From Watersipora subatra (taxonomy: Eukaryota; Bryozoa; Gymnolaemata; Cheilostomatida; Watersiporidae): a stretch of DNA of 64,000 nucleotides. Both the position numbers and the translations under genes were made by a program. How positions within the stretch are numbered: position 1 is the first letter of the stretch; each line of letters begins with the position of its first letter. The notes under the pieces are model-generated. The model did no database searches. It saw only the letters and a list, made by a program, of their open reading frames with translations, and was not told where the DNA came from. Shown here in pieces: positions 9,701-60,600 of the stretch. The stretch covers positions 66,194,672-66,258,671 of the forward strand of contig NC_088708.1 of NCBI RefSeq assembly GCF_963576615.1, read 5' to 3'.

Positions 9701-12700
9701 ATATATCTATATACGTACAAGCATATATACGCTATAGAATATATTTATATACGTACAAGCATATTTACGCTATAGAATATATCTATATATGTACAAGCAT
9801 ATTTACGCTATAGAATATATCTATATATGTACAAGCATATTTACGCTATAAAATATATCTATATACGTACAAGCATATTTACGCTATAGAATATATTTAT
9901 ATATGTACAAGCATATTTACGCTATAAAATATATCTATATACGTACAAGCATATTTACGCTATAGAATATATTTATATACGTACAAGCATATTTACGCTA
10001 TAAAATATATCTATATACGTACAAGCATATTTACGCTATAGAACATATCTACATTGTATATATGTACAAGCACATTTACGCTATAGAATATATCTATATA
10101 TGTACAAGCGTATTTACGCTATAGAATATATCTATATATGTACAAGCACATTTACGCTATAGAATATATCTATATACATACAAGCATATTTACGCTATAG
10201 AATATATCTATATATGTACAAGCATATTTACGCTATAGAATATATCTATATACGTACAAGCATATTTACGCTATAGAATATATTTATATACGTACAAGCA
10301 TATCGTTACCTTGATATAAGCAGACTCAGTGTAGAGCAACTCGATAGTATAAGAGCGTTCTACAAACATACATTACATACAACAGACCGTATCTACATCA
10401 GAGGCTTACAACTAATTGCCATGATTTCACTAGATAAATATTAATAACGCAACGAAGCTTTTAAATGACGATGATCCATAAAAACTATTGAGAGGAAACT
10501 GATAAAACAGCGTTAAAACCTTTTTTCCCTACTTGAAACTCTACATGATTATTCGCTAGATTTTCAGGATACACAAAACTAGAAAAGCGATGTACTGAGT
10601 AGAGCCTAAGCTTCGGTGCATTGATATTTCATGAGCTACCAATCTTCAGAGCTAACTTATTTTAATTGAGATTCGGTAAACACACAAAAGTGCATCATCA
10701 GTGCTCATTGCATATCAATGCCCTCACAAGCTTCTCCTGTAGTACAAAGTAATGACAAACTTGCCGCCTGACACTGTTCAAGTGTATGAAAATTTATTCA
10801 AACTCTGTGTTTAACCTCCTTGTCATGAGCAAGCTAGGTGGAAAAAGGGTTGTATGAAGTATGAAGAGTAGAAACTAGGCTTATGTTTGTGAGTTGTGTC
10901 CTATATAAACAGCTCTATTTAATAAAGGCTCTGTATATGGTTTAGTTTTATGTTTGGTAATGTAAATTTGATTACTTTTGTGTCATTATATTGTCATTTG
11001 TGTTATTATATTTGTCGTTATTCACGACAAAAAATACAGCCTCAGACTTTAAATCAGTCTTGCTAATAATACTCTAGCATATTTCATATTCACAGCTTTC
11101 GACTTTTAGCAAATTTCTAGCTCCTCAAACATACAATATATAGAATGTCACAGAGTCAATAATTCGTAGAAAATATTTTAGATGATTTATTTGTTTTCGG
11201 AATTTATTCATAGTTATTGATGAAAATATCAAACTATTGATCTTTAAATGCACTTTAGTCTGATAAACTTCCTTGACTACCTTGCATGAGTATGGAATGT
11301 ACAGCAGAGTTCACTTGAATTTGGTTAAAGAGTTACAGCTTAAGAAGTCTTGATATGCCTGAATTCAGTAACTGCCTGAGTAGCACTACTTTTTGAGGGT
11401 TTAAATTAGTTTTGACAGTTTAACATAATCGCAGTTAGCATTTGCTGGCCTGCCTGTATGTACTTTCAGGAAATGAGCTTCAGCAGTCTCAACTAATATG
11501 TAAAAATACTGCTCATAGCCAAAGACAAAATTAATCATTTGTTTGAAATTATGATAAGAAAGAGTTGAGTGGTGGACACATACCAGCATAACTGACGAGG
11601 AGGAATTGTCCTTGGTCATCCATCTTCACCACCTTATGTTCCCCATTTGAGTTGGTCCAAATGCTCATATACTCTCTAAAAGGTCAATGAATAAAGTGAA
11701 GATCACTCAATAATTTAGATAACATCTCACAGATGTTCTAAATAAATAAATTGCTTGAGACAAAATAAATGACAGATTTTCTAAAAAATAAATTAGGAGT
11801 TGTCTTCTCCATTAATGAAATAGACTATTAGTTACAGTACTAGTGAGCTTTCTTTGTTCATCTATAAAACGGTATGAGCTACTGATGATCTTTACATATT
11901 CTTCAGTTTCCTATTAGTGCGAGACACTGTAACAATCACAACAAAATGCAAACACATGCTAAGAAACAAGGAAAAACAACTTACCCTTTATATAACGGAG
12001 AAGGTTTCAATATATGCAAATCTACAATATATAACAATCATAGCATAGTTGTTTACATCCTACAAAAAAGGCTATTGGTCTTGTTTATGGTGACACCCAC
12101 CCGCTAAAATGTTTCATTTACCCTAAACAACGCTGTTTATGTTGCCAACAAGGTGAGTCATGCACTTTTTCACTGAAAATGAAAAGACAATATGTTTCCT
12201 TGGCTAGAAGCAACTATACTCGCTGCCTTAAAGAGCTTGAGCTCTGCTGCCACCTGTATCCAAAAACACAGATTCCTAGATAGCTATGGATCAAATTGAT
12301 GTTAAAAAGACAGACTCATGGATAGCTATAGATCAAATTGATGTTAAAAACACAGACTCCTAAATAGCTATGGATCAAATTGATGTTAAAAACACAGACT
12401 CCTGGATAACTATAGATCAAATTGATGTTAAAAACACAGACTCATGGATAGCTATGGACCAAATTGATGTTAAACACACAGACTCCTGGATAACTATAGA
12501 TCAAATTGATGTTAAACACACAGACTCCTAGATAGCTATGGATCAAATTGATGTCAAACACACAGACTATTAGATAGCTATGGATCGAACTGATGTTAAA
12601 ATTACTCATGAAGACTCAAGCTAGGGACGTATATGCTGTGAAGGAGTAATTATATTAATTCTATCTGAATGTTAGCACAAATACATCAAAAGCAATAGCT

Positions 12701-18800: not shown

Positions 18801-21800
18801 TCATAAAATTAACAAATAATAAAAATAAGATCGATATAAACAGTTTCAGATGTGATTCATAGACTTTACTAGCAGCAGTAAAGTAAGTTATGCTTACTGA
18901 TAAGAGGTACAGTTTCAGAGGTGCGAGGTGTACTGTCAGCGACTAGCAGCATGAAGAGTGACAGCGAAAAAAGAACTGTCAACTGAACTGATATCTTCTC
19001 ATCATTCTTATCAGGAGGAATTAGAAAGCCAACCATACAGATGATAGAAAGAGTTATACACGGGATGACAATGTTAAATATGTGCTGAATAGTCTGCCTC
19101 CTTATGTGGATGTAAACCTGCAATAAATTGGTTAGTTGTTTTCTCATAACCTGCACGAGTAAACAAATCCAAATTGAATTTTGTTCAGTTTCCAAATTCA
19201 CAGGCCGGCAAACATAGAATGATTGTATTGCAATGTACTTACCTTAACAGCTATACTTACTTTAATATCAGGGTAAGGCTCAATACAGCAATCATAGTAA
19301 GTTATAAATCTTTTTATCTTGGAATCTATCACTTCAAACTCACTGTTCTTAAGAGCATGAGTCATGTCCATCGTCGCCATTTTGTTCCATATATTCACCT
19401 GCAAGTAGACCGGCTGTTTAATTACTTAATTGGTATAGAGATCAACATTCTAAATAGTGTTGAAACTTCATTCAACCTCGAACGTTATTTTAGTTGTGCG
19501 GTTATACTCCTTGGAGTAAAATCAAATACTCAGTCAGCTAGATGACCTATTTACCATTGTTACAAGAATAACCATAGAACACGCTAACAACCAGATCATA
19601 GACAAGCCACGATGTTAAAAAAATGTCACATAGGATATAAGTAAATCCCAAGTAAATAATAAGAGCTATATAATAATAATATAATTGATAATAATATTAA
19701 TAAATAATACTATTATTTACAGAAAAAGTTGTAGGTTCACTTTAAACTGATTTCTGTGCATTAACAAAAGATCAGGTAGCATTGCTATTTTGATATTTTA
19801 TTGTACACTGTGTAAATATGAGATCTCTTACTTTGATGCAACATTTTGGCATTTTTTGCTGAGTTTAATATAATTTAAGTTGAGTATTGTTTGACTATTC
19901 CAAAATTGAATTTAATTTTTGTAAGTTACAAAAGTGTGTTTTCACTAAAGTATTGGACTAGTTATTCCAAACCTCAGTACTTTTCTGTGCGAACTCATAT
20001 GCTAATATGCTTGGGATAAAATAAAAGTTTTACCATTCCGTGTTATTCGGGGAGTAGAAATAATGTGTAGTTCAAGTATCCTAAAAGGAAATACAATTTT
20101 TTTAGTTAAACAACCAAACTTGCACAGAAATGTCTAATTTTATACTTCAACTATATTGGCAAAGGTATTGTAGGTGAGCTATCATCAAAGTGAGATGTCT
20201 AGCAGTGTCAATTGTTTGCAACATATTCTTCCTGTATTGGAATAAAGTGGTCGGATAAAAAGGGGAGACATTCACTTGTACATCGATAGCGAAGACTTTC
20301 TTGCAAACAGAGCTTGTCATTTTTTCAAGAAAAATGAACCAATGGTGGAGATGACGACTCCCTTGGGCAGGCCTCCAAAAGATATCTTGTCCATCATGAT
20401 ATGCATAATATGCAATTGAATGCTTTTGTATATTGACACAAATTAAAACCGTGTTTTCACAGACGAGGTTTTAGCACATCGAAGTTCAACAACGAGCATT
20501 GTGCCATTACTCACGTAGCTACGCAGACCAATGTGTTGATATTTGCTTCCAAGAATAATTTTCACAGTGAAAATATGTTGTCCAATGAGGTTTTGCAATA
20601 GAAGCTATTTCTAGGTAATATTTTTTATTTACAGTTTTGAAAATAGTTGTAATAGAGAATGGTATCATTTCTGATAAATTTGAATGTCAAAAATTGCGAT
20701 CAAAGATAGCTGAATGATAGCCAATGAGAAATGATCTATGCAAAGGCATTCTCAGCCCGCTTACACCCTACCTGGAAGCCATCATAAGACCATGAGCCTA
20801 GCTTCAGATAGCAGATTTGATCATCAAATGGAAAGTAAGTGATGTCGATGTTGCAGCTGCTTTTGTATCTTTTGACAGGAGGCCAGTAGATATCCCCTGT
20901 ATGCGCCACATAAGCACGGCTTCCTGTATCTCGCGTCTTTCGTATTCGTTCCTCCGCTCTATAATAATGGCAGCCACACAATTTTATATCTCAGTCAACA
21001 ATTGTTACAACTAGTATGCTGTAAGTTTAGCGCACCCTGAGAGATCATCATGAGTAATAAAAACATGTTTAATTCTTCTATGATGCAGCAAGGTGATTGA
21101 GCAGTGTGGTTTGTTTTGTTTTGATTTATTTTCATCAACAATAGTAATTAAACAAAAGAAAAAAGCTGGAAGAGTGATGAAGCTCATAATACGCATTAGC
21201 ATAGCTAGTCGTGGCATCGGGCTTGTCGTCATTGTGCAGTCAAGATTGATTTTTATGAGTAATTAGGTTTTATGCATTTGTTAAAAGATGTAATTTAACC
21301 TTTTCCTTGAAACTGGCCACCTTTTCAATTTTTTTTTATAGTATTAAGGAGCTGGTTCCAAAAAATGGCCTGTTGGTAATCCACCCTGTGATGGCCTGTA
21401 CGGGAAGAAGATTCTGAGAGATTTAAACATAACTTTGACAATCGGGTTTGATATATTGTGCGAGGGATGAAATTACAATAAAATTCATGATGGGCTAAAA
21501 TTATAATGCGGTATGAAAATAGTGAACTGATAGGTAGTATGGATGATGATTTGAAAAGAGGTTTGGTATGAGCGAGGCGGGGTTTTTTGTGAATGGTTCT
21601 TATCGTGCGCTTTTGAGGTGTTACCAAATTTGTAAGATGGGTGGGAGGTGCGTTGCCGCATGCTTCAATGCAATATGAAAGTTTGAAACTAACCATAGAA
21701 TTGTATAACAAAAGCAGAGGTTTGTGGGGTAAATATTCAAATGTGCGGTAGAATTAGCCTGATAAGGGTTTTAGTTGTAGGTTGGTAGCATGCTTGCGTG

Positions 21801-24800
21801 GAAATCTACATATCCAGGTTTATTTTCTGTGGAGTACAACCTTTTTTCCTGATGCTCTTTGGGCGGTTTCAGGCAGACAAACAGACAGACACAGCCCTTA
21901 TAACTAGTAAAGACTAGTACCTTGGCAGTCTAGTCACTAGACTACCAAGATACTAGTCATAATCTCTCACAGCACACTAGACTCTAGTGTGCTGTGGGAG
22001 ATCGTTATGTGTACCAATAAAGCACAGAGAATAAGTATGTGCGCAACAAGTCTATAACACGGCAAATGGTTGGTGGAGGTGGAAGTGTGCTGGTTGGGAA
22101 TCATATTGTTGGGAGTTTAAATCCTGTACCATGCAATATTGTTTCCAACATTGTGTACAGACACAGCTCTTATTATAGCAGAGAATATTTGTAAACTTGC
22201 CCTTTTACTTTTGTCTAAAGTCAGCTACTCGGAGAAACAACTTGAGCGGGTAAAATACACCTCAGTATATAATTCACCTGTTTATACCAGCAATATTACA
22301 GGCTTAACTTGATTGCTTTTTCATTTAGTATAAACAGCCAATAGAAGCAACGAATTTTGAAATATTGTGATACTTCTGTTTAAAAATAGCTATGCATGAG
22401 GCAAAGAGCTGCCGGTGCAAATGGTAACGTGATGTCAATAGTACAGAACAAATCTTTAAGAGTGGAAAAATCCATACTATTTGCTATTGGCTGATCAGCT
22501 GTGACATCACAACCCTATATGTGATGTCACAGAATGACAGGTAATTATTTCAGAGACAGCCTCTGGAGCGTGGTGATATGATAGTGGCCAAAATTTTTTT
22601 GCGAAATCTCACAAAATTTGTTATAAAACTGCTTTAAGATCGGTGACATTGATATTTACATATCCTGCATACACTCTGTCATTATGCACTGATTTATAGA
22701 CCTACGTATTGTAAAGGACTATATCTGGCAGCCATATTGCAGAAGAAGGTATCTTAATCTCTGTGATTCCATCAAACTCATCAGGATCCCATATCAGTTT
22801 TTCATCAACCCAATAGTGGTCCATCCAAAGTATAACAGACATTGATTGCTCCTTTTCTTCCTAAAATTCAAACAGTTTCTATGTCTATGCTGCAAAGGCT
22901 ATTGCCAAAGTCAGTAATATTTGCTAGATACTTTTGCTGCATTTATTTCTTGATTCAACTAAGATTTATGTTTTATGTAGCTTTGCATTGCACCTACAAA
23001 TGTAATCATTGCTATAACATGAGAGAAGGGTGTTAGCAATAACTTGGAGTTGTCTTTCTTAGATTAGAACATTCAATTTATGATTATATAACTTCAGCAA
23101 ATCCTCATGAACGATATACAGCCATGTAGATTGTTGTGAACCAGGTACTAAAATACAGAAACATTCTTAATATTATTGTTTAACAATTATAGTGTTATGG
23201 TGCAAAATCTTATTTTTAAATACATTACTTTTGTTGTGTTTCCATGGGAATGAGGAGCTGATTGGCCAATTAGTAATTCTCCAAAGTCTATATCAATAAA
23301 TGCATTTCTATGAACTTTTTTTATTCAAATATTCCCACGACCAAACACGAACGGAGCGAGTGTTTGAGAGATTTATGATAAATGCATGTGCACACAACTC
23401 ATGAAAATTATTCATCAACACCGTCGCAAGCCCTTGTACCGAAATCTCATCAACAAATTTAACCAGTTTTCAATGAAGTCGTTTAAGTATAATAACAATA
23501 CAAAACACATATAAACCTATTTAAATATGTTACCAAGTCTTTGTAAATTGTCGACAATATCCTAAAACTTACCCATCTGATCGGATTATACACAAATAGA
23601 CAGATTAATTTGGCCGAAATTCGCAATAAAATAACTCTTGGCAAGCTTTTTTAATCAAAATGAAGACCGACTAACGATACGCCAATAAAGCCGTGCGACA
23701 GGTAGTAGAACTATTAAGAAGGGCGCATTTCACAAGAAAAATGTGCTTATTTCACCAGTCTATAGCATTGTCTGATTGCCGAAGGTTTCTAATACTTTTC
23801 CATTTTTAATATCTTGCAAAAATATTTAATTATAAGAATAATTATTTGATTTTATAAAATTATCATAAGAATAATTATTCGAATTCATTTGTCCGAAAGT
23901 TTCTGTAATAAACGCAGACCGTTTAAGGCGTAAACCGATTTACAGGTACGAAATTGTGGTACACAGTCTATCAGCCTATGTTTTTTCCCAATTACCGAAG
24001 GTTTCATTAAATTATTTAAAGCGTTAGCCAAAATTCTTTGCATCTTATGTACAAGCTAGGGCCGAACTACAACGCCTCATTATGACGAAAACATTTTTTT
24101 ATTTTGCTCCAGTTTGCAGAAAACCTCCAGACGTGTGAACGCTCATACTTGCTTTCTGCTAGATCGCTATCAAAACATTCTACATTCAACACAACCAACT
24201 TTCAAACTGTGTATATTACACAGCAGCTTGCCATTTTACTTCTAATATTGCATTTCAGAGGTATAATAAACATATTTCCTTATTGCTGTTGTTAAATTAC
24301 ATACATTACAGTAGGTTAGGCCTACAGCTTTAATTAATACTCATTTTATTGTTGTAAAACATAGGTTTGAGATAGTAGTAGATTAGGTGTGAATTTTTTA
24401 TAATCTTTTGTCTTGCATAATTGACTTTTTGAATTTAATTTCAAAACAACTTGACAACTACCATGGACATACAACTTCCCAGAACACCACTTTGTGGCCG
24501 ATGCAGTGGCGATCCACGTGTCTCTCAATTATTACAGCTCAATAGGAGAATAAATAGAAGGTCCTCACAGCAACCATCAACATCAAATGCTGATGTTCAA
24601 CAACACGCTACTCAAATTAATAACAACAACTCATCTGATTCAGAGAGTTCTTTAGTAGATGTTGTAGGCGATATAAATGACATGGACTTGGCAGCCCCTT
24701 TGTTTCTAGATGATGATTATGATTTTATGGACATCATTGACCATGAAAATATTGCACAAAACAATATTGCTCCTCCCAATGCTGCCCCCCTTCATCACAT

Positions 24801-27800
24801 TCCTCATTTTCGATCTTTAGATTTTCCTGATTTTCAAGAACTGCGTAACAACTTTCTAGGCAGACTTGACAACAACATATCACAGCTCACGTGTACTGGA
24901 TGTAATGAAAAACATTTCATTACATACAATGCTCAAATACAACTATGTAATACGTGCCAACAAGTTTCCCTGCCAAATTCCTAGATTACTAGAATTTCCT
25001 TTTTGAAGTCGTGCTCCCACAAATTTATTTTATATCATCTCGAACAACTCTCATTTACACTATACTCTGTCAATTCCTGCTGACAACTACTTTTTCAACA
25101 ACCAGCACTACCCTTTCTTTTTTCTATTATCACTTATTCCATTATCAGGTCATGGGCTGTATGACAAGGGAATTTCTAGTGATAAGTTATAGTGGTCAAC
25201 ATGCAGTGTATATGGTACAGATATTAGTAAGTTATAATGGTCAACATGCAGTGTATATGGTGCAGATATTAGTAAGTTATAGTGGTCAACATGCAGTGTA
25301 TATAGTACAGATATTAGTAAGTTATAGTGGTCAACATGCAGTGTATATGGTACAGATATTAGTAAGTTATAATAGTCAGCATGCAGTGTATATAGTACAG
25401 ATATTAGTAAGTTATAGTGGACAACATGCAGTGTATATGGTACAGATATTAGTAAGTTATAATGGTCAACATGCAGTGTATATGGTGCAGATATTAGTAA
25501 GTTATAATGGTCAGCATGCAGTGTATATAGTACAGATATTAGTAAGTTATAGTGGTCAACATGCAGTGTATATGGTACAGATATTAGTAAGTTATAATAG
25601 TCAGCATGCAGTGTATATAGTACAGATATTAGTAAGTTATAGTGGACAACATGCAGTGTATATGGTACAGATATTAGTAAGTTATAATGGTCAACATGCA
25701 GTGTATATGGTGCAGATATTAGTAAGTTATAGTGGTCAACATGCAGTGTATATAGTACAGATATTAGTAAGTTATAGTGGTCAACATGCAGTGTATATGG
25801 TACAGATATTAGTAAGTTATAATAGTCAGCATGCAGTGTATATAGTACAGATATTAGTAAGTTATAGTGGACAACATGCAGTGTATATGGTACAGATATT
25901 AGTAAGTTATAATGGTCAACATGCAGTGTATATGGTGCAGATATTAGTAAGTTATAATGGTCAACATGCAGTGTATATAGTACAGATATTAGTAAGTTAT
26001 AGTGGTCAACATGCAGTGTATATGGTACAGATATTAGTAAGTTATAATAGTCAGCATGCAGTGTATATAGTACAGATATTAGTAAGTTATAGTGGTCAAC
26101 ATGCAGTGTATATGGTACAGATATTAGTAAGTTATAATGGTCAACATGCAGTGTATATGGTGCAGATATTAGTAAGTTATAGTGGTCAACATGCAGTGTA
26201 TATGGTACAGATATTAGTAAGTTATAATAGTCAGCATGCAGTGTATATAGTACAGATATTAGTAAGTTATAGTGGTCAACATGCAGTGTATATGGTACAG
26301 ATATTAGTAAGTTATAATGGTCAACATGCAGTGTATATGGTACAGATATTAGTAAGTTATAGTGGTCAACATGCAGTGTATATGGTACAGATATTAGTAA
26401 GTTATAATAGTCAGCATGCAGTGTATATAGTACAGATATTAGTAAGTTATAGTGGTCAACATGCAGTGTATATGGTACAGATATTAGTAAGTTATAATAG
26501 TCAGCATGCAGTGTATATGGTACAGATATTAGTAAGTTATAGTGGTCAACATGCAGTGTATATGGTACAGATATTAGTAAGTTATAATGGTCAACATGCA
26601 GTGTATATGGTGCAGATATTAGTAAGTTATAGTGGTCAACATGCAGTGTATATGGTACAGATATTAGTAAGTTATAATAGTCAGCATGCAGTGTATATAG
26701 TACAGATATTAGTAAGTTATAGTGGTCAACATGCGGTGCATATGCAGCGAATATTATAGTAAGTTATAGTGGTCAACACGCAGTGTATATGGTTCAGATA
26801 TTAGTGAATCACAGAAGAAAATAAGAATTGGAACAATTTTTGGCTCCTTTAAACTCTTCTTTTATTTCATTTGACACGGGTGGCTAGTCCGCTCCTCCCA
26901 GTTCCTGCAGTTTCTACTGCTATGTATATTTGTAATGAACAAACATTTGTTTGAACGAGCAATGAGTTTTAAAAAATATAATAAGTTTTTAATCATAGAA
27001 CTACTTTATAAATGAAGTTATCTGCACCGCTGTAAAGTAATTAGTTACTAAATTTGCATCTATGACCGCTGAAGGCATCAATAGCATAGCATTGTACTTA
27101 TACCAGAGAGCCTATTAAATATCAATTAAAATGTGTGCCCTCGGTCTTTAGCTATTGATTGTATCATCACAAGTAATTCAGATACGTGTAATGCTTCTCC
27201 TATGCTACATGTAAACTTGCATATACTTGATGGTAAAAACTTTGTGGCAATATATTTTATGCAAATAAAATCCTTCCTTCTCATAGCTTTTGTATTTACA
27301 TAGATATGATTTTTAATATCCAGATAATACCGGCTTATGAGATTTGGCATAATAATAAACATTGTAGCCCTAAGCTTTAGGTAAGTAATAGTATACAACC
27401 TGCTGGCTACAGTCGCATTCTATTACTTTATCTGAACTACAGTGCTTCCTTTTTAATATACCGAATATTTCAACAGAAAAGTATAATGCTATAGCAAAGC
27501 TGGTCAAAAATATGTGCTTATATATAATATTATAATAGTATTTTATATTTGCTAATTAAACGAAGCACTTTAACTACCTAAGGCTGTAGTACTCTTTGAT
27601 AAATAAGTCAGCAATAGAAATGCCCGTTGTTTGGAACTAATAATTATCTCTCAATTAGGACTCACCACATTTAAAACTTGAGAAAAGGTGAATGTCAAGT
27701 TGATATCGACTGGATGGTTGGCAAGGAATACTGGTCTTGTGTTCTTCTCGTAGTTCATCATAATTTCTCGAAATAACAGTCCTTCAGAAGTTGTGGTCTC

Positions 27801-37508: not shown

Positions 37509-37930
37509 CTATGTCAGAGAGTCAAGGAGCCATTGTTTCAGAGTAGCTCGAAAAACAGTGTGATTTCCATTCCGCCTTAATCCTACCGGCAGTCCGTTCC
37601 AGGCAGCCGCCAGCTGGTAAGCACAACGCCTGTGGCCAACAGCGGAGGTCAAAGGTGGCAAGGGAAGAGAAAATTGAGAGTTTCTGGTATCATAAGGTGG
37701 ATCTGGCTTAGATTTAATATAGCTTTTAAATTCAGAATGAGCCATTGTGCAAATACGTAAAAGATATAATTCATGAATAGGTAGAATATTTGCTTTTTTG
37801 TAAAGATCAGAAGTATGATAGGTGGGGGGTTTATTAAAAATTATTCTCAATAGTCGATTTTGAATTACCAAAATTTTATTTAGGTGACTCCGTGGTGCAT
37901 TTCCCCAAGCCTCAATACAATAGATATGTT
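37509..37930 (-). mobile_element. 3' fragment of a non-LTR reverse transcriptase
   Basis: It reads IEAWGNAPRSHLNKILVIQN, RLLRIIFNKPPTYHTSDLY, then a C-terminal VGHRRCAYQLAAAWNGLP and TLKQWLLDSLT stop. This is the thumb and C-terminus of a CR1/Jockey-type reverse transcriptase. The frame shifts above 37930 and the catalytic palm is absent: a 5'-truncated copy between genes A and B. Confidence 0.8.
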
Positions 37931-40393: not shown

Positions 40394-43300
40394 TTATAAG
40401 GGTATTTCCAAAGTGCCTTCTCCTTCAACGGGTACCTTTGTTGTAGGATAAATAAATATGCAGCCAACTGTTGTAGATACCATGGTAATCAGATATACCC
40501 AAAACAAGCACCTGCAACACAAAATTGTTTCCAATTTAAATAATGCTAACTTCAAGTTATGGGTAGATAACTCTAAATTATATAACAATACTTGTTAGCT
40601 AGGAATAGTTTGTTTACACAATTCAGTGGTCATACAATGGCTTTGTTAAAGAACTACACTAGGGAAAAGCAAGTAGAATGTCGGTACTAAGATGTTTACA
40701 CAGCATTTAGAGGAAGCTAATATGAAAAGTTTTTAATTTCCCTTATTTGATTCGTTTGAGACATTGATAATAATGTATCTGTAGCTGGATTTAAAATTTT
40801 ATTCTAGCCAACATGAGCAAATACAAAATTAAATATAATGCCAATAGAGCCATGTAGGACTAGACTTTTATCGCAATAGCCGATGTGAATACGAGAGATA
40901 GAGACAGGTTGTATCACACGTTACATCATTTTGGGCAAACCTGAGCATGTTTTTTGGCCTGAGCGTTCTTACTGGGATCAATTTTTTTAATTTTAATCTT
41001 CAAATATCTTGACAATGAAATTGCCTAACACAACAAACAACATATCAACTGATAGACAAAACAAATAATTTCTTTTCAAATCAACTCAAATTTGACGCAG
41101 CCACATCTTTAAGCTGATTGAAGAGACACCTTTGGCCACCTTAACCAACCTGTCAATTATCATGGCCACAGCATGCCAGTCATCACTGTTGTTCTGTTTC
41201 TTCAACAGCTCCTCTTGATGTTCTACTATAGTGTGCAGTCTTTTTAATAATGGGTCATCTTCTGAAGCCTCCTCTGTTTTACTATCGGCTTTTGCAGTTC
41301 CATTGGAGTTGCTTTTCCCTTTATTTCCATCGCCATTTGCTCGGGGGCCAAAAGTTACCTGTTAGAAGCCTCTATGTTAACTTAAAGCATTCTATGTAAT
41401 GTCTAATTATAGCTCTGTCTCATTCTGTTCCATCAAGAGCTATTTGTATAGTCTGCTTGTTCTCTGACTGGTAAAAAACTTTGAGTCAGCAGGAAAAGCA
41501 TTTGGTTAGCCAAAGTGAGTCATGTTCTAAATTGGGTTAGACACTACACAACCATACACTTGCACATTTATGTACCAACTTACGTACATGCACTTACACC
41601 TGTGTATCTACAAACTCTTGTTTCTTACACACACAAGCACTAACCTCCCCTCTACATCTCCAAACCACCCTCGTGCCCATTCACACTTACTTTTATACCG
41701 ACACATATCGATACTTATATACATTCTTGGTGCATTAGACACAGTCAAAGCACATATTTTGTCTTTAGCATATTTCAACTCTTACTTAGCTAGGAACATA
41801 TATACTTACACCTTTACAAACTGCCCATATAATGACCTACGTACCATGGCTAACTGTCGTATGTTACAATGTCGCTCCTCCCAGCTCACCATCTTCACAC
41901 ACATAATACGACCGAGTAGATAGGTTAGCTTGTGTATCCAGTATGGCACAACTGTGTCACCTTCAGCCTGATGGTTGATGTTGGCCACAAAAACAGCACT
42001 TACCACAGAAAAAGCAGTCAGACACATAGATGATGTGATGTAAATACCTGAAAGAAAATTTGTATATGATATTATGATATTATCTGAACAGTGGCTTAAA
42101 AATACCATTACATGTACTTGAATATTCTCTTGTTGATTTATTAAATGCTCAGTAGCATGGAAATAATAATAATAATAATAATAATAATAGTTTAATGCAT
42201 GATAATAGTATAGGATTTTCAGCAGCTATGGTATAGTAGTCAGCACTTTAGACTGGCAAGCAGTAGAGCAATAGTTCAGCCCTCAGAGATCTCAGGAAGA
42301 GACCTGGCTATAAATTACACCTGGGCTCCAAGATACACTCATCATGTTACCAGCGTGGGTCGGTGGCTAACTCTACTACCCCCAACACCCTGCTAGTCAG
42401 ATTTGTCATCTACGTAGGTGCTCTCAGGCCTTTATTTGCTACTAGAGGCACATGATTTTAATATAATAGGTACAAAATTACTTACCTATGATAAATATAC
42501 ATTTATTCTTAATTATAAAGAATATGTAAAAACTAAGATTTAGTGGGTGCATAGAGGAACTTACCTACGGCAGGTTGACGGGCATGTAAAGGAACTTACC
42601 TATAATAAGTAGATAAAGCAACTTACCCATGATGGGTGCATAGAGTAACATACCAGTGATGGGAACATAAGAGAACTTACCTATGATGGGTACATAAAAG
42701 TTTTCCTAAGATGGATACGTAGAGACTTGCCTATGATGGGCACATACAGACTTACTATGATGGGTGTGTACAAACTTACCTATGATGGGCACGCTAAGAC
42801 TGGTCGATGGCATACTCTCTGCTATGAGCAGCATGAAGACAGAAAAGGCAAGCAGGATGGTGAGACCGAGGTTGACCTTTTCACCTGAGTCTGGTTTCAT
42901 CCAGAAACTGAGCAGTGTGAGAATTGAAAGCATGACGCATGGTATGATTATGTTGTAGACATAATATAGGGTCCTGTAAGTAGATAGCATGAGTTCCTAA
43001 AGCAAGGAAGGCTGTCTCGACTCGCTCAGATTATTCAACATACAATAACTAGAAAAAGAAACACAGTTATTAAAAACATGAAAACTTGCATTTACTGTCT
43101 TAGAGAAGCTGCTCGTGTCAACAAAAATTGAAGACCTTGTAATATAAAAAATAGCAGGTAAATAATCGTGTCCTTTGTGCTCTATTTCTCATTACCTACG
43201 TACATAATATAATTTCCTCCGGGTTAACAAAGTTCATTGTAAAGACTTGTCTACTCTTTTTCCTACACATTGAGTACATTTGATCGTGAAAGATTTTCAA

Positions 43301-46300: not shown

Positions 46301-48502
46301 ATCAGTATTTTATTCTGTGTAACAATGGATTAATAAAATGTTTAATAGAGTGCACCGCTATTGCCAGTTGAGTTGTAAGTAAAAGTGAAAACCTTTCTTT
46401 AGATTACAGCGTTATTTCTTGGTTTATAAATAAAAATTTAATATAAATAAATATGAATATTTTTATTTATAAATAAAAATAGTCTCTCGTTTTTCTGCGT
46501 TCAAGTAAAAAGACACTGGAGTAATCATATATCAACTGATATATTTATATTGGTAAAGTATACCTGATCCAACCATACCAGCACCGTCAGAACTTGGTTC
46601 TTCTCCTCCTGCAACATACAGTCATCAGCAATCTTTCATTAACTTGGTGTACATGTATATTCTTTACCCCTCACTGCTTGTACAACAAGTGATAGCAAAC
46701 TGCAAAAGGAAAAGCAAGAAAACAGACAGAAATTGTCGACTTGGCGCAAAAGTGCTTCCTAATATGAAACAGATTCATTTAGCATAGACAGTGTTGGAGC
46801 GATAGGAAACAGACAAGAGATGTTGCACTATCTTCATTGCGCATGTAGTCAGGTGCGTTTAGTTCAGCCTACCTAACATAAATTGATATAAGATGATGTT
46901 CTCATTTTCCTGTATTTCATCTCGGAGTACGCAATAGACTTCAAAGAGAAACGGAATAGTTCACTAAGGTTGGTCAACAGGTTGTGTTTGCTACGTATTA
47001 CTGGAGAAGCTCCTATATTTGCTTCCTTAGTGATACGACTTTGATATGGCATGTTTCTGACACACTCTAGTATTCCTCACTTATTCACATCTGGTCACCA
47101 TGCTGTTACCATACCACCTGGCCAGCAGCCCACCTTCTTTATTAGCCTCATCGAAACAAGTCAAACGCCTCATAGTATTACATGAGGGTTATTAATTACT
47201 TGGACTATTGATGGGTTTAGAACGAATAGTTGCAAACACGTAGAGAACTGGGCATACGGGTACTCGTACCACCATTGGATCATTCTTACATCTTAGGAAC
47301 CAAGTCTAGGCATGGAAGTGGTGGTAATTGGAATATAACAATACTCTGTAGCTGTCTACAGCTAATAAATGAATTAATCTGATTTCACATGATTGCGTGT
47401 AGCTGCTTCTATCTAGAATGGCCACTCCTCACCCATCAAAGCTTGGCTATATAGTTTCGTAAATGGTAAAGCTGAAGCAGGCAGCAAATCATGAATAGTA
47501 ATTTAATGTTATAAATTTTAAAAACTCTGTCGATTAAATGGGTTCAGTATGTGTTGTTCAGACCAGACAACTTGACTATTATGGCTGAAAAGTTAGTCAA
47601 TTAACTGATAAAAACTTTAAAGCATATAATAAATGAAAGTTTGTTAAGAGCCAAAAAAATTGCAAACAATTTTTATTGATTTGGTTGAAAGCGAACACGG
47701 AATAAATGCTTTTCAATCAGTGAACATAGCTTAAGATCTGGAATTTATCATACACATACCACATCTAACTGTATGAGAGTGACTTTATTATACAATCGCC
47801 ATATCTAGCAAGATGAGAGTGAGTTTATCATATACCTACCACATCTATCTGGATGAGAGTGACTCCAATCTTCAACTCAACTGGCTCAGAAGCCTTCAAT
47901 ACCGGCCGAGAATTTTTTTCATAGTTTGTCATTAACTCGGCCAATAACCTCTGTTCATCACTATTCCTTAGCCTGTGATCTGTGAAGTTATAGTTTTCCA
48001 TGACACGATCAGTTAAATTAATGAAAAGCGAGATCGCTTCAAGTGTCTCAACTGTCACATTCGGAGACTCAGCTAACACTATCATCACATGGCACAGCTC
48101 TTCCAGAATATTCCCTGGCAAAAGTCCATTGTTTACTCTGACCACTTGTTCTTCCAACTCGGCGATCTTCTTTCTCCTCGAATCCAGTGAGGAACTTTCC
48201 GCAATCGTCTCTAGTTGAGAATTAATCGAGGCTATCAGTCTTTTATAGGGAGGGGTAGTTCGACGACCCTCTACCTCCAGGTACGAGTGCTGAGTAGAAC
48301 ATAGTTTGGTATAATTTGATTGTAAGGTGTGAATTGCAAATGGTTGGGAACTGTTGTAATCTATTATTGATCCCACGGTTAATTCAGTGCGGTTGTATAC
48401 CTCTGGGTCTCCATCGTTTTCATAGTTTCTTGTGGCAGTAAGTGGGGACCCGAGTACAACTAGAAGTATAAAGTGCATAACATTTGTTAAGAAACAAAGC
48501 AT
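40394..48502 (-). CDS. nAChR alpha-type subunit with N-terminal extension, gene B (complete, 627 aa)
   Basis: Pentameric acetylcholine-gated channel subunit. Exons: 47840-48502, 46564-46608, 45798-45907, 44684-44819, 43653-43858, 42780-42973, 41845-42047, 41150-41358, 40394-40511. The 45-bp and 110-bp exons have the classical nAChR sizes. ATG at 48502 starts a signal peptide (MHFILLVVLGSPLTATR). About 160 residues that are not nAChR follow: several N-glycosylation sequons and a charged helical stretch (DSRRKKIAELEEQVVRV). The ligand-binding domain begins only near residue 180 (LLAELMTNYEKNSRPV). Later motifs: VLVWLDQ, WLPDIVLYN, Cys-loop C306-x13-C320, YYTCCPEPYIDI with the vicinal pair at 370-371, M1 388-412, M2 GEKVNLGLTILLAFSVF with the normal 9' Leu, M3 about 452-475, M4 about 590-611. 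The exon at 41845-42047 has a second in-frame donor upstream of the chosen one (GTGAGC). A minisatellite built of the M2-exon donor follows the exon ending at 42780. Confidence 0.92.
42228..42440 (+). mobile_element. Possible SINE in gene B intron
   Basis: CTATGGTATAGTAGTCAGC resembles a tRNA A box and AGTTCAGCCCTC a weak B box. GTCGGTGGCTAACTCTAC follows. An ATA microsatellite lies just before it (42163-42189). Tentative. Confidence 0.33.
42545..42790 (-). repeat. 24-27-bp array of the gene B M2-exon 5' splice site
   Basis: On the minus strand each unit is CCCATCATAGGTAAGTT plus about 8-10 bases. The true exon end is the first copy (exon ends at 42780). Eight or nine copies follow; several keep a full ATAG-GTAAGT. 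One has lost a G, one has GCAAGT and one GGAAAA. Confidence 0.85.
44440..44552. repeat. 22-bp tandem repeat, 5 copies
   Basis: The unit is TTGTGTTGACCTTGTTAGCAA plus one base, in a gene B intron. Confidence 0.92.
45030..45490. repeat. Intronic segment duplicated at 51840-52290
   Basis: Shared landmarks in the same order include CTACTACTGGAAAA, AATAAATTGTTGTTAAAAAG, AGCTTGACC..GCAGGTAAT and TATTAATCTTAAACA. By eye about three-quarters to four-fifths identical, same orientation. See the nAChR relic entry. Confidence 0.8.
46274..46306. repeat. 15-bp perfect inverted repeat
   Basis: ACTGATAATCTATAT, three bases, then the exact reverse complement, in an AT-rich part of a gene B intron. Confidence 0.8.
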
Positions 48503-50488
48503 CTTGTGTCAATAATTGATGTTAATTGCTTCATCTTATCAATGCCTATAGTAATACACTGACTACCCTTTGGAAATCCTGTGTTAAAACATGTTCAACT
48601 CAAATATGTGAAGACGTATTTATACTGGACAATGGTGTGTGCGGTTTTAGCACTATTTAATTGAAACTTTTTAGTCTGGAAGCAAGCAGTAAATTCTGTA
48701 TGATACCAACTGCACTCAAAACTATGATTGAAGCAATCCGCTGCGGTCAATTGACCAATAGCGAGCTATTTTTAGCAACTACCGTATTATTTTTTTATTG
48801 GTTTATTTCAATCCCATGTTTCAGCTCTCCGTTGATTTTTTTAACAATTGTTCTGAATATATGATTATATTTATGAACAAAAGCAATGTACACATTACAG
48901 GTCTCTGATTTAAGTAATTCAATAGCATGCCAACTGTTGTGTACCCTTCACAGGATATTTTACTTTGACTCGTTTGGATAGTAACATATGTCAGATTTTA
49001 CAGTGCCAATATATGGTTTACCAAAATCATATCATAGTCTTGTTGACATTGACAGCCTAAACATTGGCAATGGGAAATTAAAATGACATAAAAATTAGGC
49101 TAAAAAAATGATAAGCCAACCTAAACAAGCTCCTTTTTGCTGGGTTTTCTTGACCTATTGTTATAGCAACTCCCGCTGCCTTGGCCTGGGATTGTTGAGC
49201 AATTAAATAATATACGATGAAAAGCGATTGGTTTCTACTAAAACCTTGACAACTAATAGAGGGCATTACAAAAGACCTCCTAACTCTACGCAGAATCAAA
49301 CTAGAGTGTAATGGTTATATATTTCTGAATAATATCGTTATGTAAAACGCATGAATAATCTTGGGAGTATCAACAGCATTGCTGTCACTTGTGAAATAGT
49401 AACTTTGGAAAATTATTTTCTCAGACCCGCTTTGAAAAGTGCACAGGGAATTGAAGTGTAGTGGGTTCAATTGTGAAAACAAGATTTTGCTCTGGGCAAC
49501 TTATAAATGGTTTCCTCAGCAGATCCCCGGAGAAAAGAAATGAATAAAGATTGCCAAACATGTTTGACCATGGGCGACATTTCACCTGTACCTCATAGCC
49601 CATGAGGGACCTGAAAATCTTTTACAGTTTTGGCTAAGAGAACAAGTACCTGTATCGTTTCTTCCATACTATGAGGCTGCAAAGTTTGGTCTCAACTGAA
49701 TTATATATCCATAAATAATTAAAGTTTTTACTTACCAAGTTCAGTGGGAAAATGCAAGGATAAAAGAAAACGTATACTTGAATAACCCTTGCTAGTCTCA
49801 AAGTGTTCCTGAGGATATTGCGGTTACTCATTCACCCCCAGCCCACTTCTGACACCAAATCTCACACCATATGATACCCCTGGCACAATATTCCAGCTCT
49901 GGTAGCTCTTTTATCAAACACCAATCACCATACTCTAGCCATTGCATGGCTTCCACCCTTAGCCTGAGATCCTAACCATATACTAGGGCTGACATCATAC
50001 CTGATGCGAACAGCAGCGTCTGCACTCCTCTGAATGCTTCAGTCTTGCTTCTCATTACTCACTTGAGTTGTCCGTCAGTGGTAAAAAGCTCATGAATAGT
50101 CTTTAGCGTAAACTTAGCAATTATTGTCAGCCCAACACCTATGTGGAAAGACAAGGTAATAGTTAATCGTGTTCCCATGAAATTCCCAAAGTTCGTAATG
50201 CAAGATTATAGTCGCGTTTTCAGAGTGACACTGCCTCTATTGAAAATTATTGCTATATACATGTATTTATGAAATGCTAGCGCATGTATTACTCATAATC
50301 TGAATAAACAGCTTTAGGAAGTTAGTTTTAGCTTTCATTCTTGTGATCACAATTTTATAGAGTTATTCATAGAGCAGTTCATAGAGCTATCCTTATGATA
50401 TTTGAAACATGGATGCATAGAGCAATTGGAATACTTGTTTATAGCGCTTGCCTTTTAATTTCCACAAGGAAGCCCTTACATCAAATCA
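48503..50488. other. Intergenic, upstream of gene B
   Basis: It holds the gene B promoter region and 5' leader; no promoter motif is clear. No nAChR-like or other exon recognised. Confidence 0.4.
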
Positions 50489-50750
50489 AAGAGCTTACCT
50501 TCATAACTCCTCATAGAGCTACCTTCATAACTTATCATAGAGCTACCTTCATAACGCCTTATAGAGCTACCTTCATAACTTCTCATTGAGCTACCTTCAT
50601 AACTTATCATAGAGCTACCTTCATAACGTCTCATAGAGCTACCTTCATAACGTCTCACAGAGCTACCTTCATATCGTCTCATAGAGCTACTTTCATAACT
50701 TCTCATTGAACTACCTTCATAAATCATCATAGAGCTGCCTTAAAAGGTTC
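50489..50750. repeat. 24-bp tandem repeat, about 11 copies
   Basis: The unit is ACCTTCATAACTTCTCATAG plus AGCT. Open on the minus strand as SYEGSSMR repeats. The minus-strand unit contains GAAG-GTAGCT, weakly donor-like. Confidence 0.93.
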
Positions 50751-51173
50751 TCATAGAGTGAGTCATTCGTATATGGTTACCATAAACCTGAGATCTTCAA
50801 TACCCAAATATACAGAAATAAAGTTTATATCTCTGCCAGAGGTACTCATTGTTCATGAAGATGTTAAAATATGCTTGCAAAACAAAATTATAAGAACTTT
50901 GTCCTAGTACCATGATAGTCTCTGGTTTATAGCAGAGCTGTGAAAGGTTGTTTCACCTAACTTGCAACTCTGTATCATAGCATTTGTTTAGTCGCGCTAA
51001 AAGTCTGCAGGGACTAGTACGGCTACTCCTAATAAGCTACTGCCTCTATAATTACCACAGTACTATAGCTGCAGTGTTGTGCTTACAGGCTATGTGAAAT
51101 ACACAAATACAGAGTGTTGTAAAGAACACATCTGTAGACACTAGAAATGTTTACAATTCAGCCTGCTGATACC

Positions 51174-51839: not shown

Positions 51840-53270
51840 TCGTATCAGCAGCCCTACTACTGGAAAAGATTTCAGAGTTTGTGAGTGTGGGGAAAAAATC
51901 TACTTACAAAAAAGTGAAGTCTTATGAAAGGCCTTAATGAGAAAACACTAGATGAATTTTTTGAATAAAATAAATTGTTGTTAAAAAGTTATAATACCAA
52001 AGGTTTTAACTATCTATAGGACTATTTTAGAAGCTCCATTAGCTTGACCACGCAGGTAATCAGCTCTCATCGCCACCATAACCTAATTTACCTGTTGGTC
52101 TATTCGACTAATAATGAAAGATCTGATAATTGCTGAACTAGATGTAATCTTATACTGGTTGCGTATTGGACATCATCGCTACTGTAGGTAGGACTTCAAA
52201 CCAACAGATTTATTTTAGTATTAATCTTAAACATATTGTTATGGTAGGCTATTAAGCTAGATTTGTATTCTCAGTTTTGTCTCAATAGGTTTAGTGCAAC
52301 ATTCATGCTGTAAATATTGTAAAAAGTGCTATCAGAATTTTAGACTTCTAGGTCTGCATGGGTTAGTAATGTCCAAAAAAATCAATGCCCTCTTAGCAAA
52401 AGTTCTTTCTGCTGCCTGTTTGCTGCCTGCTGCCTGCTGCCTTCTATTAACTTCTCTTACTTGATTCACATACAACCTTCTGGAAAACCTCTATCTGACA
52501 ATGTGCTACAAAATTCATAGACTGTGGACATGTTTATAAAAGTTTACTTGATCAGGCTTATAAAGATTTACCTGATCAGGTTTATAAAGGTTTACTTGAT
52601 CATGTTTATAAAGGTTTACCTGATCAGGTTTATAAAGGTTTACCTGATCGTCTTTATAAAGGTTTACTTGATCAGGTTTATAAAGATTTACTTGATCAGG
52701 TTTATAAAAGTTTACCTGATCAGGTTTATAAAGGTTTACTTGATCAGGTTTATAAAAGTTTACCTGATAATGTTGATGAAATTTACCTGATCATGTTTAT
52801 AAAGGTTTACCTGATCAGGCTTATAAAGGTTTACTTGATCATGTTTATAAAGGTTTACCTGATCAGGTTTATAAAGGTTTACCTGATCGTCTTTATAAAG
52901 GTTTACCTGATCATGTTTATAAAGATTTACCTGATCAGGTTTATAAAGGTTTACCTGATCAGGTTTATAAAGGTTTACTTGATCAGGTTTATAAAAGTTT
53001 ACCTGATAATGTTTATGAAATTTGCCTGATCATGTTTATAAAGATTTACCTGATCATGTTTATAAAGGTTTACCTGATCAGGCTTATAAAGATTTACTTG
53101 ATCATGTTTATAAAGGTTTACCTGATCAGGTTTATAAAAGGTTACCTGATGCTGGATAGCAATTTTGCTGTAGAGTTTAATCAGCTGGTGTACTGTGGAT
53201 CTTGTTACCTGTGAAGCTTTAAGATCCCATATAAGCTTGTCTTTTGTTGATAAGTTTAATATCAAAATAT
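51840..53270 (-). pseudogene. Relic of a duplicated nAChR gene (exon 4-like fragment plus intron)
   Basis: Around 53219-53260 the minus strand reads KDKLIWDLKAS. At DNA level AAGCTTATATGGGATC differs at one position from the start of gene B exon 4 (45798-45907). The fragment runs on for about the same length as that exon to a CAG-GTAACC donor-like site near 53151. Farther down the minus strand, 51840-52290 resembles 45030-45490, which lies in the same relative place inside gene B (the intron after exon 4). Matching order and spacing of exon and intron suggest a former tandem copy of gene B. No other exons are recognisable and key residues (WDP, WLPDIVLYN) are gone. The 24-bp array at 52529-53150 grew between the two parts. 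An alternative is that the shared 450 bp is just an interspersed repeat and the exon match is chance. Confidence 0.55.
52529..53150 (-). repeat. 24-bp array, about 26 copies, adjoining the nAChR relic donor
   Basis: The minus-strand unit is CCTGATCAGGTAAACCTTTA plus TAAA. The first unit merges with CATCAGGTAACCTTTTATAA at the end of the exon-4-like relic, so the array seems to have grown from that donor. Variants with GATCAT/GATCGT occur. Confidence 0.9.
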
Positions 53271-57657: not shown

Positions 57658-60600
57658 TTACCAAATTTTTTTTGTCTTGAACCAAACATTTGATGCTGGC
57701 ATCCATAGCAGGAGACCAAGGGAAGCAGAAAGGGTAATCAAAGCGTGTATCCAGAAAAACAAACGATCTAAAACTATGGCCAAGAGTCTCCATTCATCTC
57801 TTATAGCCTTGTGAGCTTCCTTCTGTCTCCTGTGTTTACTGTTTGCTCTTATCTGCTCTATTATTAAGGTCTCTAGTTTGGTACGAGATGGCTTTGATTT
57901 GCTAGTAGCCGTCCCATTGCTATGAGTCGGAGACTTCTTTTTGTCAGCTAATTCCCACGTGTATGTGTACAATAAATCAGATGTACTCATGACTTTAGGT
58001 GGCCTAGGGAACTTTTCAATTTCATCTTCAATTGTCACGGACTTAACAAAGTCGTGTACCAAACCGCGGACGCACAACGCCTTGGCTAGGAAATCAGACA
58101 TAAATGTGCGAATCCAAACTGGAATTCGATGCTGTCTCGGTCCGACATGATGCATTTGTAGGATTATAATTGTCAAGATAATAGAGAAGGATGTCAAGGA
58201 CATGATGATGAAGAGGTAGATGCCTGCAATATAACAGCATAAAATCAAATACAAAAAATGACTACTTAATACGCATACTGTATAACAGAAAGGGTGAAGT
58301 AAGGGAGACAAAAAGCGCTCTGAAATATGGAATTTTTATCTTTTGAAAACAAGAATTCCTAATTATAAGGAATTCTTTAAAACACCACTTAAATTATGTA
58401 GCTTATGTAATTTATGTAATTCTATATTGCATTAAAGTAAAACAACTGTTACACTCTGGATGCCTAAACTAGGCGTTATTTCTTATGTGAGGCATTCAAA
58501 TTTCAACTGCATAGCCTTACCAATTTATACAAAAAACAGCTGTCTTTGCCTTAATAGAGGTACAAAGGCTACATGATAGCCGAGTCTGGTAGGGTCTGTT
58601 GGTAGTTTAGCAATGTATTGGCAACAGCTGTGGCCATAGATCTTTCTGAATATTTAATGTGTACCGACCATAATAATTGCTTACTTTATAATAAATGCAT
58701 TTGGTATATGCTAAAAATATTTTATTGGTTTCATTTCACAAGTTTTCAAATAGAGCAATTACTTTTCAAGATGCATATCACTGAAAGCAGCAAGTGGCAA
58801 ATAGTTCCAAGTCTATGGGTATGCATAGAACTAAATTATGCTTATTACGTACTTTGTTCTATCATATATATTATTATCCTATTTCATCCCATTTGCATCA
58901 AGAGCCCTTATGTTTGTGGCAAACTTAAGGTTGTCTCTTGTATGTTCGACTATCATGCTATGACAAGTTTTATATAATACTCACCTATGGGTGGAACTGA
59001 TGCTATGGCAACTTGTATATAATACTCACCTACGAGTGGAGCTGTTGCTATGACAACTTGTATTTAATAATCACCTACGAGTGGAGCTACTGCTATGGCA
59101 ACTTGTATATAATACTCACCTACGAGTGGAGCTGTTGCTATGACAACTTGTATTTAATAATCACCTACGAGTGGAGCTACTGCTATGGCAACTTGTATAT
59201 AATACTCACCTACGAGTGGAGCTGTTGCTATGACAACTTGTATATAATACTCACTTATAGGTGGAACTGTTGCTATGACAACTTGTATATAATACTCATC
59301 TACGAGTGTAGCTGTTGCTATGACAACTTGTATATAATACTCACCAATGAGTGGAACTGATTCTGAGGTTTTTGGCATACTCTCAGCTACAAGCAGCATA
59401 AAAACGGAGAAGGCGAGAAGCACAGTTATGCCGAGAGTTATCTTCTCTCCGCTGTCCGGTGGTAGATAGAAAGTCATGACATTGAGTATGGCGAGCCATA
59501 GACATGGGAAGACAATGTTGAATAAGTAGTAGAGTACTCTTCTTTTGATAATAAACTTGTATGTTACAAATGGATAGGGTTCAGGGCAGCACTCATAGAT
59601 TACAGAGCTCCTAAAACACAGTGTACATGGATCGTGGATAGAGGTTCAACTAGAAATTCCCCTGTCTTACAGCCCACAACTAAAGTGAAAATGGAAAAAA
59701 GAAAGGGTACTGCTGGCTGTTGAAAAAGTAGTTGTCAGCAGGAATTGACAGAGTATAGTGTAAATGAGAGTTGTTTGAGATGATATAAAATAAATTTGAG
59801 GAAGCACGACTCCAAAAAGGTGCAACTAACAGTTTATTTTGGAGATAAATTTGGGTTACAACCAGGTATATGAGTAATTAGTTAATTGTTGATATTACAG
59901 TTGTATTTGGTAGTGTAATATAAATAGATATATAAAGGTGAAAAAGTTCTATTTTAGAAGTGTAAGTATAGAAAAATGTTAGGAATGTTGTGAATGAAAA
60001 GTATATGGGGAATGTAAAGTTGTATATAAAGTAATAGAAATGGAATAATGGTATATGATATAGAATAATGTTGTAAATAAATTTATATGTAGGCCCTATA
60101 TAAGTATATATAAGGTATTTTGTATACGAACTAATAACAAAGGAAATGTATAATACTAGAAATATAGAAAAGGAGACATGTATTAGGTGTTTAGAAAAAG
60201 TTCATATAGAAAATAATAGAAATAGTATTGTTAGATAAGTGCAGTGTTTTGTTAAAGGTAGCGCAGTCTAGTCTCCTCTCTTTTACTTTGTAGGATTTGG
60301 TCATTGATAGCTAATCGAGTGATGCGCTCCCTAGCGAAGTTGTTAACAAGTAAGCCATTAATGTTTCGAACTCGAGACAGGGAAGAGTATAGTTCATATT
60401 GGAAAAAGTTCATTTCCTGTTACAACGGTAAAATATTGAGAGTTGGTTTGTGTGAGCCGATGAATAGTAACTTTAAGATCTTGAAATTGGATTTTACTGA
60501 AGGTGCGCAAATTTTTCAGTTTCCCTAATAATAGGGAAAGTATAGTTCAGTAAAATCTAATCTCAAGATCTTAAAGTTACTATTCTCAATATTTTACTGT

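Follow-up and report, generated by a model that had tools for sequence, protein, structure and literature searches.

Competition between 5' splice sites has reportedly been studied by Eperon and co-workers (cited in PMC8724738 and PMC5933811) with pre-mRNAs that carry competing or duplicated sites; these were laboratory constructs, reportedly mostly with two sites. The locus described here likewise places several donors which would compete for U1 in one pre-mRNA, in this case as a natural row of nine. Intronic minisatellites are a second point of comparison. Our arrays have in common with them the tandem units, a higher-order dimer and the location in an array-rich stretch of the genome. Unlike ordinary intronic minisatellites, however, they start within an exon, and most of their units contain a splice signal.

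One described way in which new introns arise is the tandem duplication of AGGT segments (PMC4974935). In the extract of that paper considered here, the potato RdRp case and two fission-yeast genes with AGGT repeats of 24 bp likewise show a short head-to-tail segment with AG/GT whose units include possible 5' and 3' splice sites, and the yeast introns span several repeat copies. Unlike these intron-making repeats, as far as the extract describes them, the nAChR arrays multiply an existing donor of an intron which appears to be older. In PAH intron 11 (an extract of PMC5933811), extra U1-complementary sites likewise lie shortly downstream of the used donor, and U1 bound downstream of a natural donor can support it or enhance exon definition. 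The function of the PAH sites was shown in minigenes; here there are up to eight copies, for which such a function would be putative. Among the literature matches listed, whose titles and abstract beginnings cover part of the literature, we found no natural array of an existing donor.

The window is the whole stretch of 64,000 nt of Watersipora subatra DNA that was analyzed. It contains exons of the nAChR genes A, B and C. For gene C the following features are relevant.

59345..59610, minus strand: gene C exon with M1 and M2, matched by Pfam Neur_chan_memb; when it is joined to the next exon, the receptor reading frame stays open.
57658..58223, minus strand: gene C exon with M3 and M4, beginning G/IYLFIIM and including the stop codon, matched by Pfam and by the alpha-7 nAChR in PDB.
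58956..59359, minus strand: array C, nine 45-nt units (TRF and unit table).
59045..59224, minus strand: units k = 3 to k = 6 of array C, a 90-nt higher-order repeat (pairwise unit table).

In the protein, exon 59610-59345 supplies M1 and M2 of a nicotinic-type receptor, preceded by the last part of the ligand-binding domain. The gene C exons within the window match the Pfam profiles Neur_chan_LBD (3.8e-32) and Neur_chan_memb (3.2e-44), and the top PDB match is the alpha-7 nAChR (8.4e-47). With both the ligand-binding and the transmembrane domains matched, gene C is a nicotinic/Cys-loop receptor gene; profiles and structure match agree with what the first-pass annotation had proposed. Alpha-type nAChRs are defined by a vicinal cysteine pair preceding M1, and such a pair stands ahead of M1 in gene C (YECCPEP) and in gene B (YTCCPEP). 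The true donor of the exon, TTG/GTGAGTATT (TTG/GTGAGT) at 59344, follows ...SVPLIG in phase 1. Use of a downstream donor had been predicted to lengthen the M2-M3 linker. The alignment to alpha-7, whose membrane topology we take to apply here, indeed places the insertion inside the linker, but at its far end, at the start of M3.

TRF reports for array C a 45-bp period with 9.0 copies, 87% matches and 0% indels. Each unit is made up of 15 nt of exon end followed by 30 nt of donor and intron start. The donors lie at 59344-45k, with k = 0 for the true donor and k = 1 to k = 8 for the eight extra copies, and the gene C junction matches itself at offsets of 45 to 360 in steps of 45, as a tandem array that spans the junction does. 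The nine in-phase copies on the minus strand are thus confirmed. Agreement of the single units (k = 0 to k = 8) with their consensus ranges from 39 to 43 of 45 sites. A 28-nt junction core with up to three mismatches occurs at seven places in the window, all of them array C units (k = 2 and k = 8 exceed three mismatches and are not counted), and nowhere in 100 shuffles. The repeat unit quoted by the first-pass annotation does span the exon-intron junction, but it is the copy type and not the exact exon junction; the exon reads ATTG/GTGAGT and most copies GTAG/GTGAGT. GTGAGT is found at k = 0, 2, 3, 5, 7 and 8, ATGAGT at k = 1 and GTGATT at k = 4 and k = 6. Thus five of the eight extra copies (k = 2, 3, 5, 7, 8) keep GTGAGT and not seven as first counted, seven being the number that keeps GT itself, and the copy which had been offered as a usable second donor is k = 1, without GT.

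Array C repeats the exon letters for SVPLIG, from which we infer that it grew out of the exon and not into it. SVPLIG, like its equivalent SVPIIG in array B6 (see below), is a receptor motif with the alpha-7 counterpart SVPLIA. Units 3 and 5 are letter-identical, as are units 4 and 6 (45/45 each). This exact duplication of a 90-nt dimer suggests that the array has grown recently, by a 90-nt step. Identical dimers of this length are prone to misassembly, and the array might be an assembly artefact or have a wrong repeat length. We consider this hardly credible, as units 1, 2, 7 and 8 are each distinct and two further junctions in the window bear diverged arrays which are not assembly copies.

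These two junctions belong to gene B, also on the minus strand (gene body 48501-41086), whose seven exons splice in silico to one open reading frame. The match to Neur_chan_LBD is full-length (7.4e-61) and the match to Neur_chan_memb covers profile positions 1-100 of 233 (1.9e-30).

42780..42973, minus strand: gene B exon with M1 and M2, ending ...SVPIIG in phase 1, with the donor TAG/GTAAGT at 42779 (spliced gene B, Pfam).
42548..42801, minus strand: array B6, degenerate tandem copies of CCCATCATAG/GTAAGT from the homologous donor of gene B (TRF at 42592-42801, self-match, hand-made unit list).
42480..42495, minus strand: isolated extra copy, TTTATCATAG/GTAAGT, whose donor lies 294 nt beyond the gene B donor.
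47840..48501, minus strand: gene B exon 1, ending GVTLIQIDV in phase 0, with the donor GTG/GTAGGT at 47839.
47744..47864, minus strand: array B1, three copies, 40 nt each, of a segment with the end of exon 1, the donor and the start of the intron (TRF, self-match, donor energies).

The end of the M2 exon at 42780 is homologous in place and phase to the gene C junction. It matches itself with at least 18 of 30 letters at seven offsets, and with units delimited by hand the donors of array B6 are spaced by 24, 25, 25, 25, 27, 27, 27 and 35 nt. The decayed tandem donors read GCAAGT and GTATGT, and one has no GT. Exon 1 reads IDVEEKNQVL... when joined to exon 46564-46608; we take its end, TLIQIDV, to be a conserved receptor motif. 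The same exon contains a stretch of about 180 amino acids ahead of the match to the ligand-binding domain. At +40 and +80 the junction of array B1 matches itself in 20 and 26 of 30 letters, respectively. Both extra donors of array B1 are decayed (GCGATT and GTATGT), and the exon 1 donor is itself GTAGGT. Extra donors that are no longer GTRAGT thus number 3/8 in array C, 3/8 of the tandem copies in B6 and 2/2 in B1.

Gene A provides the third homologous junction.

18898..19117, minus strand: gene A exon with M1 and M2, with the homologous phase-1 donor TCA/GTAAGC and no array.

Its M1-M3 part is matched by Pfam at 7.5e-14. In the self-match of 14 donors this one showed no array and a single lone upstream match at the 18-of-30 threshold. 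The intron after the M2 exon has the same place and the same phase 1 in genes A, B and C. Because the three genes share it and gene A has no array, the intron appears to be older than the arrays. For the same reason we discarded intron gain by tandem duplication. Common ancestry of arrays C and B6 was also dropped, as the local alignment score of the two introns was reached by 124 of 300 shuffles. The array periods differ: 45 nt in C, 24-27 nt (about 27) in B6 and 40 nt in B1.

Arrays of their own junction are found at 3 of the 14 mapped nAChR donors against about 0.2 expected (P about 0.002; this and the following P values are rough, because the 40-nt criterion and the list of donors were chosen after the first arrays were known). 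Tandem self-match and a distance of at most 40 nt from the 5' end of a TRF array single out the same three donors. At least three donors at arrays were obtained in 123 of 63,999 circular shifts and in 276 of 200,000 random-point draws. Random placement of the 10 genic arrays within gene bodies, for which some exon starts are approximate, gave 0.0023, and the tests together range from 0.0014 to 0.0024. With the donor of gene C left out, 2 of 13 remain (P 0.018 to 0.026, about 0.02). Donor B_e7 (41812) is less sure than the other 13. The mapping leaves out the first exons of gene A, the acceptors of exons 4 and 5 in that gene and of exon 4 in gene C, and the gene C exons beyond the window. None of the 13 mapped acceptors has an array; two of them show a single, not tandem, match at the 18-of-30 threshold. 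Three of 14 donors versus none of 13 acceptors is not a firm contrast, the numbers being too small. The arrays that overlap the 17 listed coding intervals are again three, all on the donor side, by 15, 22 and 25 nt. Altogether TRF reports 26 arrays in the window with a period of at least 9, which cover 8301 bases. Among the 10 inside gene bodies, only the two at M2-exon donors have GTRAGT on the gene strand.

Donor strength was expressed as computed U1 duplex energy. In array C the true donor has -11.1, copies 3, 5, 7 and 8 have -12.5, copy 2 has -7.6, copies 4 and 6 have -6.6 and copy 1, which lacks GT, has -5.8. Scoring of the donors unit by unit had been recommended as a check, and it shows that four of the eight extra copies beat the true donor and that k = 1, 2, 4 and 6 are weaker. 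In array B6 the true donor has -10.5 and the eight extra sites have -10.5 (three times), -10.3, -12.1, -5.3, -5.6 and -5.8, the last being a GC site; the unit at offset 74 has neither a GT nor a GC donor. The B1 copies have -1.5 and -7.2 versus -10.7 for the true donor. Extra sites which equal or exceed the true donor are therefore 4/8 in C and 4/8 of those tested in B6. Since the array-bearing donors rank 2nd, 3rd and 4th by U1 energy among the 14 (C and B6 being 2nd and 4th), they are not a random draw. According to work cited in the extract of PMC5933811, simultaneous binding of U1 to two donors more than 40 nt apart leads to preference for the downstream donor. Neighboring C copies (45 nt) are inside this range; neighboring B6 copies (24-27 nt) are outside and every second one is inside. 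Silence of the array C copies is thus not a given, as half of them outpair the true donor at a spacing of 45 nt.

We computed the reading frames that would result from use of the extra donors. First-donor use gives open receptor frames in genes B and C. Donors 1 to 4 of array C would keep M3 in frame and donors 5 to 8 would hit a stop before M3; the four 15-residue blocks are open, as the first-pass annotation had stated, and a TAA follows in unit k = 4, the fifth unit. The tested donors of array B6 lie 24, 49, 99, 126, 153, 180, 215 and 294 nt downstream, and seven of the eight lose M3, only the 24-nt one keeping it. In array B1 both extra donors run into stops at once. A splice-choice device, in which donors k = 1 to k = 4 insert 15-residue blocks at the border of the M2-M3 linker and M3 and so tune gating, would make use of the period of exactly 45 nt and the frame open over four blocks. 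Moreover, GTGAGT is intact in copies 2 and 3 ahead of the stop, and the first intron codons, GEYYI, resemble the start of M3, which extends the Pfam match by 10 profile positions, however for only 1.8 bits. Yet only k = 2 and k = 3 combine GTGAGT with a position ahead of the stop; k = 1 has no GT and k = 4 is GTGATT (-6.6), which leaves as plausible donors only k = 2 (-7.6) and k = 3 (-12.5), and copies 5-8 lie beyond the stop. Of the 15 variable columns of the unit, 6 are first, 5 second and 4 third codon positions, and as there is no third-position bias we see no sign of coding constraint on the inserted frame. Together with the loss of M3 in B6 this makes a splice-choice device very unlikely. 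The first-pass annotation had offered two ideas, a splice-choice device and simply tolerated decoys. The decoys fit best; the device is poorly supported given the lack of codon bias, the TAA and the broken frame in B6.

It could also be argued that the extensions are poisonous, that is, that downstream donors give rise to truncated, NMD-prone mRNAs and the array lowers or regulates the receptor dose. The next domain is lost with k = 5 to k = 8 of array C, with the seven B6 donors mentioned above and with both B1 donors, and half of the extra sites in C, as of those tested in B6, are at least as good as the true donor in U1 energy. We note, however, that loss of the next domain is weak evidence, as most intron extensions reach stops anyway, and that the B1 copies are decayed. 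We regard such a role as quite unlikely.

Conservation within the arrays bears on whether the donor copies are under selection. Ungapped columns of array B6 show stronger conservation in the 16-nt junction core than in the spacer (permutation P 0.0006); the donor hexamer, too, is more conserved than an average column (0.035). With gaps allowed, the raw identity is 0.78 for the core and 0.74 for the spacer, and the excess over shuffled sequences is 0.50 versus 0.29. GTAAGT is kept in five of the eight tandem extra copies of B6, for which the probability is 0.43 and 0.14, and so unremarkable, at 10-15% divergence, borderline (0.045) at 19%, the mean column mismatch of the array, and low (0.006) only at 25%. 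Retention of the B6 core hints at constraint or at a bias of repeat turnover, and the case for selection on the donor copies is only suggestive. In array C, computed from seven of the nine units after two identical ones were dropped, the exon-derived part is most variable (0.80), and the donor (0.91) and the intron part (0.92) hardly differ. These seven non-identical units show no particular retention of the donor. RNA structure as a reason for the array was discarded with a fold z-score of -0.31.

A further proposal is a multivalent U1 platform. The extra donors would recruit U1 without being cut themselves, and in this way reinforce the exon-proximal donor or protect the AT-rich intron from premature polyadenylation. 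This proposal is consistent with the better-kept B6 core, with the restriction of GTRAGT on the gene strand to the two M2-donor arrays among the 10 genic ones, with AATAAA downstream in both introns and with the downstream U1 binding that enhances exon definition in the extract of PMC5933811. On the other hand C and B6 have true donors that already rank 2nd and 4th in computed strength among the 14, so that a need for support is not obvious; AATAAA is also present in array-free introns, the donor is not specially kept in array C, and three of eight C copies as well as both B1 copies are damaged. On balance we think that a U1 platform is rather unlikely. A bolder version would see in the arrays a recurrent and selected architecture, rows of U1 docking sites which buffer or tune the definition of the M2 exon and which arise repeatedly via donor-seeded tandem duplication, two of the events having affected one and the same donor position in two paralogues. 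This too we judge to be unlikely.

We favor as the probable, though by no means certain, explanation that the arrays are recurrent donor-seeded minisatellites which are tolerated. Three junctions of the window carry arrays in the registers given above, with exon-derived letters and with an open frame when the first donor is used. We suggest the following steps. Short tandem duplications would arise across an exon-intron border, taking in 15-25 nt of exon end and the first intron nucleotides, and would then grow. Such seeding would have taken place at three donors of two neighboring nAChR genes, probably independently. The duplications could persist since exon and donor are restored by the first copy and all later ones come to lie in the intron. 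Of the donors, the exon-proximal one would be in use, and the downstream copies would be surplus U1 binding sites which are mostly silent. We infer the independent origin of the arrays, the use of the first donor and the silence of the others. In favor of donor-seeded minisatellites are the arrays at three of 14 mapped donors and at no mapped acceptor, the donor-side position of all three overlaps with coding intervals, the minisatellite-rich window, the differing periods, the lack of similarity above shuffles between the introns of C and B, the decaying extra donors, the lack of codon bias and the open frames with the first donor. Several points speak against this account. The survival filter only removes arrays, so that the excess at donors over random intron positions needs a mutational or selective bias, which is still missing from the explanation. 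Further, the better-kept junction core of B6 could mean that the donor copies are selected. The high U1-energy ranks of the three array-bearing donors, the strong pairing of half of the extra C copies and the small numbers behind the contrast with the acceptors also count against it.

A natural row of nearly equal 5' splice sites is a ready test of how the spliceosome chooses a donor, all the more as four of the eight C copies outpair, by computed U1 energy, the donor required for making the receptor. Should donors really be hot spots of tandem duplication, minisatellites would have a route into genes there, and exons could lengthen in fixed steps.

Several other repeats of the window carry donor-like letters. 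The array at 52532-53150 has 26 copies of a 24-bp unit with the donor-like minus-strand consensus ATCAG/GTAAAC and no mapped exon close by. Together with 50486-50758 it has AGGT in many units, and both were set aside since no mapped exon adjoins either. At 25183-26805 there are 36 copies of a 45-bp unit, mostly with A/GTAAGT, within a 588-codon open frame, and GTRAGT occurs 35 times on the plus strand. This array was dropped as a fourth junction array because it directly follows the end of a repeated element which by eye also ends at about 59650 and about 61660. Just upstream of this element end, at 24439-24984, a 181-aa open frame with a CxxC...CxxC-like end possibly codes for a mobile-element protein; it has no Pfam match at E 0.1. 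Two minus-strand open frames, 21325-21753 and 37509-37928, resemble, by eye, the C-terminal parts of LINE reverse transcriptases, the latter without a Pfam match at E 0.1. The longest of the 26 minisatellites, with 61 copies of a 38-bp unit, lies at 7963-10303.
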